DNA of 5,254 nucleotides, taken from contig MGQK01000084.1 in assembly GCA_001797815.1 (NCBI GenBank), positions 4,524 through 9,777 on the forward strand, given 5' to 3'. The DNA comes from Deltaproteobacteria bacterium RBG_13_61_14. Lineage in GTDB: Bacteria > RBG-13-61-14. Below the pieces are notes generated by a model, which had not been told where the DNA came from, searched no databases, and was given only the letters and a program-made list of their open reading frames with translations. Both the position numbers and the translations under genes were made by a program. Of the stretch, positions 504 through 5,179 are shown piece after piece; the first letter of the stretch is position 1, and each line of letters opens with the position of its first letter.

Positions 504-512
504 ATTTTACCA
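504..512 (-). promoter_or_regulatory. Possible extended -10 element giving a leaderless psd transcript
   Basis: On the minus strand TGG (512-510) precedes TAAAAT (509-504), a 5/6 match to TATAAT with the TGn extension. No good -35 box is present. A start site about 7 nt downstream would fall at the psd ATG (496), giving a leaderless mRNA. This would fit the absence of a ribosome binding site. The TGG comes from the end of the inverted repeat. AT-rich chance matches are common, so this is tentative. Confidence 0.25.
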
Positions 513-596
513 TAGAGACACAGAGAGCGCAGAGAAAGAAAGGGGAAAAAAATAAAAGAGTTTTTAAATTCTCTGTGTCCTCTGTGCCTCTGTGGT
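509..596. repeat. Long imperfect inverted repeat (CACAGAG/CTCTGTG type), probable dispersed MITE/REP-like element
   Basis: The arms 509-536 and 569-596 (28 nt each) are reverse complements. In plus-strand RNA they form 23 Watson-Crick pairs, 3 G-U pairs (513/592, 527/578, 529/576) and 2 mismatches (518/587, 526/579). The 32-nt loop (537-568) is A/T-rich. Each arm is a decayed tandem of a unit of about 8-9 nt (CACAGAGA on one side, CTCTGTGTC on the other). The element fills nearly all of the 111-nt gap between the ilvC stop and the psd start. Similar CTCTGTGTCCTCTGTGCC-type arms recur in the intergenic DNA of many environmental bacteria, as I recall. No long U-run follows the stem on the minus strand, so it is not a canonical intrinsic terminator, though it could still attenuate or protect the ilvC mRNA 3' end. 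Confidence 0.75.
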
Positions 597-607
597 TTTG
601 TTCTATC

Positions 608-1734: not shown

Positions 1735-3021
1735 TCAGTCTTTTTCCGCAGGAAGACCGGCGGGTGATTTCTGGCACGTTTGCGCCTGGAGCAGGAGTTC
1801 TTCCACCACGGTCTCGACCATGGGGACGGTGATCTGGCGCATGCATTCGGGGTCCTGGCAGGCGATGGGCGTGGACCAGTCCCAGCAGGGCGAGCAGGAG
1901 ACCGGGCTTCTCACCTCCCGGTGGATGGCCGGGTCCCCCCAGGGGCCGTAGGAGGGAGGGGTCGGCCCGGAGATACAGACCACGGGCGCCTTGGTGGCCA
2001 CCGCGACGTGCATCCACACCGAAGAGCCGGACACCACCGCGTCCATGCGCTCGATCAGGGCCATGGCCCCCCGCAGCGAAAGCTCCCGGCCCACGATCCG
2101 GGGCGGCCGTTCGAGGCCCGCGGCCACCCGGCGCACCTCTTCGGTCTCGTCCGGCCCTTCCAGAATGAAAATCGCGCCACCCCTCTTCCGCTGCAGGCGG
2201 TTGCCTAGCTCGATGAAATAATCGGCCGGCCATTTTTTCTGGGGCAGGCCCGGGGTGGAGCCCACGTGAAAGCAGACCCAGGGCTTGGGCGGATGGGTTT
2301 TTCCCAGCCAGGCCGCAGCCTCCGCCCGCTCCGCTTCGGTCAGCCAGAGATCCATGGGCGGGACGTCGCCCGCGCAGCCCGCGGCCGCGGACAGGTCGGC
2401 ATTGACCAGAACGGTGTGGCGGTCGTCGGGAATGGGGACGCGGACAGTGCCGCGGCCGGGCTTGAGGTCCAGCTCCGGGGCGATGACCCAGCGCGCGCCC
2501 AGGCGTTCAAGGATCTCGCGGATGCGCCAGAAATTCATCGGGTAGGAGACGAGCAAAAGCTCGGGCGCGAGCAGCTGCACCCGGCGGAAAGCGCGGTACA
2601 GAGCGGGCGAGGGACCCAGGCGGAAAAGAAAATCGTCCTGGGGCAGCTCCACGACCTCGTCCAGGACCGGAGTGCCCCGCAACACCCCGCAGACCGCAGA
2701 GGGCGCCACCAAAATGATCCGGGCGGCGGTAAAATGCCGCCGCAGCATCTTAAGCGCCGGCGTGGCCATCACCGTGTCTCCCAGACCCCAGAGCTTGAGG
2801 AAAGCCACGGTGCGCACTTGGTCAGGGGTGATGGGGACCTCGCGGTGCGCCGCGACCCGGCCGGGCAGACCCCGGCTGTGCCAATAGAGCCATCCCCGGA
2901 GCGCCTCCGCGCCCAGCCGGCGCCAGCTCTTGTAGCGGACACCGGCCCAGCCCTCCTCCCGGAAGGTGCGGTAGGCCCGTTTCCAGATCGGCGCTAATTT
3001 GGCCTGGTGAACCTTGGGCAT
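1735..3021 (-). CDS. Glycosyltransferase family 9 protein (heptosyltransferase-like)
   Basis: GT9 enzymes (WaaC/WaaF and relatives) transfer heptose or a similar sugar from a nucleotide donor to lipopolysaccharide core or related glycans on the cytoplasmic face of the inner membrane. The 428-aa product has a basic ~70-residue N-terminal extension without a signal peptide. Next comes the first Rossmann domain with VAFLKLWGLGDTVMATPAL (72-90), then FHVGSTPGLPQKKWPADYF (251-269), and the donor-site region SGSSVWMHVAVATKAP (331-346) followed by GPTPP (352-356). A Cys cluster (C376, C379, C388, C393) ends in ECMRQI, as in many GT9 proteins. The canonical D-S/T-G before MH is replaced by S333-S334-V335, so donor binding may differ. 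AAGGGA lies 6 nt before the ATG. It follows a methyltransferase, a kinase-fold gene and a truncated GT9, suggesting one glycan operon. Sugar donor and acceptor cannot be read from sequence. Confidence 0.88.
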   Translation of the reverse strand: MPKVHQAKLAPIWKRAYRTFREEGWAGVRYKSWRRLGAEALRGWLYWHSRGLPGRVAAHREVPITPDQVRTVAFLKLWGLGDTVMATPALKMLRRHFTAARIILVAPSAVCGVLRGTPVLDEVVELPQDDFLFRLGPSPALYRAFRRVQLLAPELLLVSYPMNFWRIREILERLGARWVIAPELDLKPGRGTVRVPIPDDRHTVLVNADLSAAAGCAGDVPPMDLWLTEAERAEAAAWLGKTHPPKPWVCFHVGSTPGLPQKKWPADYFIELGNRLQRKRGGAIFILEGPDETEEVRRVAAGLERPPRIVGRELSLRGAMALIERMDAVVSGSSVWMHVAVATKAPVVCISGPTPPSYGPWGDPAIHREVRSPVSCSPCWDWSTPIACQDPECMRQITVPMVETVVEELLLQAQTCQKSPAGLPAEKD

Positions 3022-3027
3022 GGCCCG

Positions 3028-3033
3028 TCCCTT
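3028..3033 (-). promoter_or_regulatory. Ribosome binding site of the GT9 gene
   Basis: AAGGGA lies 6 nt before the ATG at 3021 and supports that start. It is in the 39-nt gap after the stop of the truncated GT9 remnant. Confidence 0.6.
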
Positions 3034-3060
3034 ATCTTCGCTTTCCGGCCCCGGTCCAAA

Positions 3061-3255
3061 TCAAGCCCGCCGGGAAACAAATGCTTCCACTCTCTGCTCG
3101 ACCGTCTCCACCGGAATCTCCCTCATGCAACGGCCACCGCAGCAGCGGAGGGGAACGCGGGGGACCAACCGGGGCCGCTCTCGGCCGCGTTCCGCCGGCG
3201 TTTCTCAAATTTTCTTCACCTCGGGAATTTTTCTATACCTTCTGTGCTCCATCAT
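3061..3255 (-). pseudogene. Internally deleted GT9 glycosyltransferase remnant
   Basis: The 230 bp between the kinase and the intact GT9 holds two pieces in the same frame. The first, 3255-3205, starts with ATG overlapping the kinase stop (ATGA) and encodes MMEHRRYRKIPEVKKI before a TGA. Its KKI ending is where GT9 proteins usually begin their first beta strand (KKILVI...). The second, 3204-3061, has 47 sense codons and a TGA. It contains TPAERG, then VPLRCCGGRCMREI and VETVEQRVEAF. This resembles the GT9 C-terminus and the intact neighbour (TPPSYG, then SCSPC and ECMRQI with VETVVEELL). About 290 residues typical of the family middle are absent. I infer a gene originally coupled to the kinase that lost ~0.85-0.9 kb internally. 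An assembly collapse could look the same. The 21-codon ORF at 3126-3061 is probably just its tail. Confidence 0.6.
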
Positions 3256-4259
3256 CCCCAGGGCAATCCGCGGAATCTTTCCCTCCGTAAAAAGGCCTGA
3301 AAATTGGATCGCAAATTCCGGAGCAGGGGGTCATCCCTCTGGCCTTTGTTTTCGCGGAGGAGGATATCCATAAAGGTATACACCGAGAGCGCGCTGGCCT
3401 CGTCGGGGCCCAGGCCGATTGAGCGCCGCACCTGGGCAATCATTCCTTGGATCAGACGGTCGAGGATCTCCGACGGAAACTGCAGGGAGGAGAAATACCA
3501 TTCCAGATTGATCGCAAAGATGATCGCATCCACCAGGGGCAGGCCGGGGGACCGGGCATGCTCCCAATCAATCAGGGCCAAGCCGCCCTCAGGAAGAGAT
3601 AACAGGTTGGAGAGGACCAAGTCCCCATTCTGCCATTTTACCCAGGGCAGAAGTCCTCGCGCCCCTGAGACGACGGCGAGCGCTCTCCGGATGGCCTCTT
3701 GTTCCAGGGACTCTGGCCTCGAACTCCCTTGGTATTCAAGAAGGCGTTGTCGAACAACCTCGGCGGCATCGGCTTCCATCTCCGCTTCCGGGCACACCTC
3801 GACTCCCCCTAAGAGCGAGGTCATCTTTTCTACCAACTGAGCCGTCAAGGTAACTCGTTGGGAAGGTTTGGAATGGTCCAGGATGCTATCCCAGGGAATT
3901 CCGCTCACATACTCCCGCACCAGAACCTGGATTCCCTCCAGATCCATCCGCGCCAGCAGCTTCGGGATCCGGGAAGGAATCGGAAGGGAGGCGAGTTGCT
4001 GTAAGTTTTGGGCTTCGGCCTCAAGCAAGTCATCGGTGAGGGGGCCTCGACTCAGTTTGACCACGAGGGCGGGATCCCTCCTCGGCCCATCAAAAATGAT
4101 GGCGGTTTTGCACCGCTGCACTCTCATGCCTTTCCAGACCACCGCGACTTCCGAAGCCGACCGCGCGGACAAACCCAGCCGCTCCCGTTCCTGGATCAAC
4201 CAGGCCACCAGGCGGCTCTCCAGACGATCCCGCTTCGCGGTTGGAGGCTCGGTTTTCAC
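3252..4259 (-). CDS. Aminoglycoside phosphotransferase / choline kinase-fold protein
   Basis: It is a predicted cytoplasmic small-molecule kinase of the protein-kinase-like APH superfamily, 335 aa; the substrate is unknown. Visible motifs: VVKL with K68 as the likely ATP-binding lysine; LLEAEAQNLQQL (78-89) as the helix C region with its glutamate; VREYVSGIPW (114-123) as the hinge; WQNGDLVLSNLL (209-220) as the catalytic loop with D213 and N218; ALIDWEHA (228-235) with metal-binding D231. N211 replaces the usual His of HGD. The start is GTG: it overlaps the methyltransferase TGA as GTGA and has GGAAGG 5 nt upstream. The open frame continues to 5015, but that extension is the shadow of the methyltransferase. 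Coupling to a methyltransferase and location before GT9 genes suggest phosphorylation of a sugar or lipid-linked intermediate. An antibiotic-resistance role is not supported by context. Confidence 0.82.
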   Translation of the reverse strand: MKTEPPTAKRDRLESRLVAWLIQERERLGLSARSASEVAVVWKGMRVQRCKTAIIFDGPRRDPALVVKLSRGPLTDDLLEAEAQNLQQLASLPIPSRIPKLLARMDLEGIQVLVREYVSGIPWDSILDHSKPSQRVTLTAQLVEKMTSLLGGVEVCPEAEMEADAAEVVRQRLLEYQGSSRPESLEQEAIRRALAVVSGARGLLPWVKWQNGDLVLSNLLSLPEGGLALIDWEHARSPGLPLVDAIIFAINLEWYFSSLQFPSEILDRLIQGMIAQVRRSIGLGPDEASALSVYTFMDILLRENKGQRDDPLLRNLRSNFQAFLRRERFRGLPWG

Positions 4260-5179
4260 CCTGCCCTTCCAATGAAAAAGAAATCTTCCGCGGTTCGGGA
4301 CCAGACCCAGACCAGGAGGCGCGCGATTTTGCCCTGGGTATGGATCAAACGACGGCGGAGGGAATGGCCGCTCCACCAGTCCCCCAGGTACCAGCACAGG
4401 GCCGGCTCTGAAGCCACGGGAAGGATGGTATGGGGAACATTGTAAGAATGGATGGGAATATAAGCCTGGACCGCTCGAAACCCCGCCTGCTCCAACATGC
4501 GAGAATAAACAGGAAGGCTGTGGGTCCAGGTTCGATACCCCTCTCGTTGTCGGCCCATTCTTTGCTTCATCCCTTGAGGCCACCACCGCGCTGCGGCTCG
4601 GACCACCCCGTTGGCCAAACTTCGGGGCAGGATCGCGGTGCCGCGTAAGCCGGAATGGGGATCCCTCTGGCCCTTCAGCTGAGACCGCGCGTAGCGATTT
4701 TCGATACCAATCAGAATCCAGCCGTGGGGGGCAAGCCATTCTCGAACCCGCGCCAGGACCGCCGCCTGGATCTGATTCGGACCTCCCGAACAGGATAAGG
4801 GCAGCCATTCCAGAACGCCATTGAGCAAAGCCAGGGAGAGGCAACCCGGCTTCAACCGGAACCGGGTAATGTCGGCATGGATAAAGATCACGTTGTGGAA
4901 ACCTTCTTGCTCCAGGCGAAGTTGCGCGAAGCGCAGACGCTCCCAGGTCAGATCCACGGCCATCACCAACCGGGATTGCGCGGCAAAGACCTGGGTCAAG
5001 GTCCCCAGCCCGCAACCGAGATCGAGCACGATCGCCTCCGGATCCTGGGGGAGCAAAAAGCGAAAGTCGGCCCGGATCAAGTCGGCCACGAAATCGCGTT
5101 GGACTTCATCGGAAGGGGTCAGGAGTCCCAATCCTGTATACCAGCCTTCTTCTTTCGTCACCTCCACGATTTTAACCAT
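4256..5179 (-). CDS. Class I SAM-dependent methyltransferase, surface-glycan type
   Basis: It is a predicted cytoplasmic methyltransferase of 307 aa from this ATG. The Rossmann core shows motif I VLDLGCGLGTLT (51-62), the acidic end of strand 2 AVDLT (74-78), FIHADI (99-104), LLNGVLEWL (118-126) and the strand-5 region WLAPHGWILIGIENRYA (148-164). The stretch ENRYARSQLKGQRDPHSG (160-177), and later YSRMLEQAGF (225-234), resemble methyltransferases encoded in polysaccharide clusters, often beside APH-like phosphotransferases (recalled pattern, not searched). The downstream kinase gene overlaps the stop by four bases. The start is uncertain: no Shine-Dalgarno is well placed (GAGGAAG is 14 nt away), and 24 in-frame sense codons precede the ATG without ATG, GTG or TTG. 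The methyl acceptor is unknown; a sugar or glycolipid is plausible from the adjacent GT9 genes. Confidence 0.82.
   Translation of the reverse strand: MVKIVEVTKEEGWYTGLGLLTPSDEVQRDFVADLIRADFRFLLPQDPEAIVLDLGCGLGTLTQVFAAQSRLVMAVDLTWERLRFAQLRLEQEGFHNVIFIHADITRFRLKPGCLSLALLNGVLEWLPLSCSGGPNQIQAAVLARVREWLAPHGWILIGIENRYARSQLKGQRDPHSGLRGTAILPRSLANGVVRAAARWWPQGMKQRMGRQREGYRTWTHSLPVYSRMLEQAGFRAVQAYIPIHSYNVPHTILPVASEPALCWYLGDWWSGHSLRRRLIHTQGKIARLLVWVWSRTAEDFFFIGRAG
4265..4270 (-). promoter_or_regulatory. Ribosome binding site that fixes the GTG start of the kinase-fold gene
   Basis: GGAAGG lies 5 nt upstream of GTG (4259-4257) and inside the last codons of the methyltransferase. With the GTGA overlap it indicates translational coupling of the two genes. 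Confidence 0.7.

Follow-up and report, generated by a model that had tools for sequence, protein, structure and literature searches.

A likely C-terminal relic of a GT9 glycosyltransferase gene between an APH-like kinase gene and an intact GT9 gene in a deltaproteobacterial MAG

The spacer that separates an APH-like kinase gene from an intact GT9 glycosyltransferase gene likely holds the non-functional relic of another GT9 gene, which would once have formed a tandem with the intact one, on its upstream side, and would since have lost most of its 5' part. The window, that is the whole 5,254-nucleotide stretch of DNA analysed, lies on contig C84 of a MAG of 4.74 Mb (132 contigs, completeness 95%). 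On its minus strand the genes are ordered as flippase-like gene (beyond the window), SAM methyltransferase, APH-like kinase, spacer, GT9, ilvC and psd, where flippase, ilvC and psd are what we take these genes to be from reading their translations and not from a profile search. The features that concern us are:

1735..3021, minus strand: intact GT9 glycosyltransferase, 428 aa (PF01075, 2.4e-21)
3061..3204, minus strand: 47-codon frame ETPAERGRERPRLVPRVPLRCCGGRCMREIPVETVEQRVEAFVSRRA plus TGA (codons 3204-3064, TGA 3063-3061; by translation)
3067..3141, minus strand: putative GT9-like C-terminal remnant CGGRCMREIPVETVEQRVEAFVSRR, 25 codons, residues 22-46 of the 47-codon (tail) frame (by custom GT9 C-terminus profiles)
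3205..3255, minus strand: 16-codon frame MMEHRRYRKIPEVKKI plus TGA (codons 3255-3208, TGA 3207-3205; by translation)
3252..4259, minus strand: APH-like kinase, 335 aa (PF01636, 8.4e-13)
4256..5179, minus strand: SAM-dependent methyltransferase, 307 aa (PF13649, 3.2e-11)

The intact GT9 also matches the heptosyltransferase II model TIGR02195 (3.1e-22), yet under that model's own cut-off. Tandem GT9 genes are present elsewhere in the genome (contig C59). The GTG start of the kinase overlaps the methyltransferase stop by four bases (GTGA).

Retranslation confirmed the coordinates and translations of the original prediction, both for the ATGA overlap and for the two short frames. The kinase stops at TGA 3254-3252, and an ATG (3255-3253) overlaps this stop as ATGA (3255-3252). 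The 16- and 47-codon pieces lie in one frame, split by a single TGA, and 39 bases separate the TGA of the longer piece from the GT9 ATG at 3021; the spacer could hold no more than 64 codons. The first start in the 47-codon frame is a TTG at residue 13, and the codon-usage score of this frame is the best of the six, but still negative. Searches of the spacer with a promoter scan and with Rfam gave no match, and no PF01075 domain with a donor-binding region is found in it.

To evaluate the 3' half of the spacer, we made custom profiles from the GT9 C-termini of this and other genomes (about 37 and 76 sequences, respectively). Against the smaller profile the 47-residue frame scores 16.4 bits, compared to at most 11.1 among 10,000 shuffles, and 15.1 when the intact neighbouring GT9 is left out of the profile. 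With the 76-sequence profile the tail scores 14.2 bits, which is above all of 10,000 shuffles (best 12.3), and it ranks first against real-DNA controls consisting of 8,718 non-GT9 six-frame segments from 505 kb of DNA (next 10.2). The alignment spans residues 22-46 only. Residues 1-21, including the TPAERG that had been counted as part of a recognisable GT9 tail, show no homology, as 399 of 500 shuffles score equally well or better; that claim is therefore supported for the last 25 residues and not for the part before them. Pfam and NCBIfam give no match for the tail, and the missing Pfam match is uninformative, because PF01075 stops short of the Cys-rich tail: in the intact neighbour, of 428 residues, it matches only as far as residue 380 and misses most of that region. 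True GT9 tails of equal length usually score higher, and in a leave-one-out analysis only two of 38 fall under 14.2. Such a low-end score fits a decayed relic, or a divergent tail without the CxxC and the loop. Of 76 pairwise matches, only two are better than that to the intact neighbour (23 residues, ungapped), which fits an old tandem paralogue. Judged from these sequence comparisons, the 3' half of the spacer is probably a real GT9 C-terminus of ~25 codons.

The evidence is different for the 5' half. It had been proposed that a second GT9 gene is reduced to its two ends, with the true C-terminus brought next to the genuine first 16 codons, themselves coupled to the kinase through ATGA, by one internal deletion of ~290 codons. 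We consider this scenario unlikely. It would agree with both pieces being in the same frame with one TGA between them, with the similar four-base overlap of the methyltransferase-kinase pair, which makes operon coupling plausible, and with KKI, the end of the 16-residue peptide, commonly opening strand 1 of GT9 proteins, although [KR][KR][IV] occurs there in only five of 23 GT9 N-termini. However, 957 of 1,000 shuffles of MMEHRRYRKIPEVKKI align to GT9 N-termini as well or better, a comparison in which 16 residues have little power, about 3% of its shuffles end in [KR][KR][ILV], and the peptide contains the motif at another place too (RKI). An ATGA overlap takes just an A ahead of the TGA stop, which happens by chance in about one of four cases, and a shared frame in one of three. 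Moreover, since residues 1-21 of the tail frame lack homology, the supposed join is flanked by recognisable GT9 sequence on neither of its sides. The GC content of the 16-codon stretch is 37.5%, compared to 59% for the kinase, as a spacer might have, and we regard this stretch as AT-rich spacer without support as a GT9 N-terminus. What is supported of the proposal is a remnant, through the C-terminal 25 residues and their position upstream of the intact GT9; the assignment of KKI to strand 1, and with it the pair of ends and the single coupled deletion, is not. It is quite improbable, on the other hand, that the spacer is ordinary intergenic DNA whose translation looks like a GT9 C-terminus by chance. 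The match is short, worth few bits and without counterpart in the curated families, the codon signal is weak, and a search of 386 other genomes with the tail as a single-sequence query returned compositional noise only. Yet the tail tops all shuffles and all real segments, and it sits in the one spacer that adjoins a GT9 gene, on the right strand and in the right orientation.

The remaining explanations concern the junction and its surroundings. An assembly artefact, in which a complete second GT9 would have lost its middle part while the MAG was assembled or scaffolded, is very unlikely. As a scaffold, the contig contains N gaps, among others at either end of the window, and other GT9 pieces lie at contig ends (C59 and C62), so that GT9 genes can break assemblies; but there is no N in the spacer, and misassembly is thus possible but not indicated. 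In addition, there is no direct repeat near the junction that would collapse (none of at least 9 bases in 2950-3320, just scattered short inverted pairs), and no fitting orphan GT9 middle was found in the MAG, in which the 301-bp region is present as one copy, as is the tail. The GT9 fragments of C59 and C62 are contig-edge truncations with ends of their own and not the missing middle. A GT9 N-terminal part runs off the start of C62 and a GT9 C-terminal part enters at the start of C59 (L113 2-397, L114 3-524); the two may be one gene split by assembly. A further candidate relic, on C102, found no support from the custom profile. Phase-like variation of the glycan locus in a population had also been suggested. 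It would mean that the population carries both the intact tandem GT9 and the deleted form, the deletion being a recent or recurrent variant that would change the surface glycan. We think this highly improbable: direct repeats of at least 9 bases are absent around the junction, and neither a second nor an intact copy is present in the MAG. Two other genomes of the same phylum, both of the same order, were available for comparison, and neither yielded the kinase; a scan of genome contigs for syntenic relatives yielded just two distant Aminicenantes GT9s. Among the genomes scanned, none shares the locus, and no relative with an intact GT9 at this position was found. Least probable of all is a working small gene, either a 16-codon leader peptide or a protein of 47-64 residues produced by TGA readthrough or re-coding. 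The ATG overlapping the kinase stop and the open 47-codon frame would be compatible with it. However, the first start that the 47-codon frame offers is the TTG, no small-protein homologue of the tail was found in the 386 genomes, and TGA is a stop here, because the kinase, the methyltransferase and the tail frame all end in TGA.

We thus favour the relic of a tandem gene. For it speak the place of the tail piece, which has the orientation of the intact GT9 and lies directly upstream of it, and the tandem GT9 genes elsewhere in the genome; against it stand the length of the match, just 25 residues, its 14-16 bits, the lack of Pfam and NCBIfam hits, the negative codon score and the failure to find a relative with an intact gene at this position. 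In this reading, the intact gene would formerly have been preceded by a tandem GT9 paralogue, most of whose 5' part would have been taken out by a deletion or recombination in the glycan locus. About 25 codons of its C-terminus would still be recognisable in front of the GT9 that survived. Ribosomes translating the kinase would stop at its TGA, and reinitiation at the overlapping ATG would end after 16 codons, so that no glycosyltransferase would be made from the spacer, which now probably serves only as a leader for the downstream GT9.

The neighbouring genes were surveyed as well. Methyltransferase and kinase (window 3252-5179) recur side by side in three other genomes (loci L197, L198, L201 and L202 are listed with the pair), and some of these pairs adjoin flippase-like genes. 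At a second locus of the MAG, the two are apparently fused in a 785-residue frame. No GT9 was detected in the retrieved flanks of six other methyltransferase-homologue loci and one kinase-homologue locus, and the idea that GT9 is a fixed partner of the pair was therefore abandoned. The pair has a GC3 of 0.68-0.69 versus 0.78-0.91 for most contig neighbours; a foreign cassette was considered and dropped, because the genome-wide median GC3 is 0.73 (crude sample of 209 ORFs). In the kinase (window 3252-4259), NGDLVLSN is found where homologues have HGDxxxxN, meaning that the catalytic-loop motif differs in its first residue. The pair recalls WbdD, a methyltransferase-kinase chain terminator (PMC3482155); a sequence match of the pair to WbdD was not seen. 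Further downstream, between psd and ilvC, lies an imperfect inverted repeat (window 508-602; ACCATAGAGACACAGAG ... CTCTGTGCCTCTGTGGT). The motif CTCTGTGNCTCTGTGG occurs 36 times in the MAG with at most one mismatch, compared to 0 for the reversed control, several copies forming facing pairs, and is a dispersed palindromic repeat.

If correct, the relic would document that a surface-glycan locus of an uncultured lineage has lost one GT9 paralogue, with little meaning beyond annotation. Since PF01075 does not extend into the Cys-rich tail, GT9 C-terminal relics of this kind escape it. The tail frame looks like the end of a GT9 protein in residues 22-46, where a Cys-Met is followed by the last helix. 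Unlike a GT9 protein, however, the remnant has neither a catalytic domain nor a start codon of its own, and it lacks, or has in shortened form, the usual CxxC and the loop that precedes the last Cys. Surface-glycan loci (LPS, O-antigen and capsule) contain pseudogene remnants in the form of short 3' glycosyltransferase fragments between intact genes; a literature search on glycosyltransferase remnants returned nothing specific. In contrast to such remnants, neither a mobile element nor a repeat is seen at the junction described here, nor does an intact relative prove the ancestry; like them, it would be a short 3' glycosyltransferase fragment amid intact genes.
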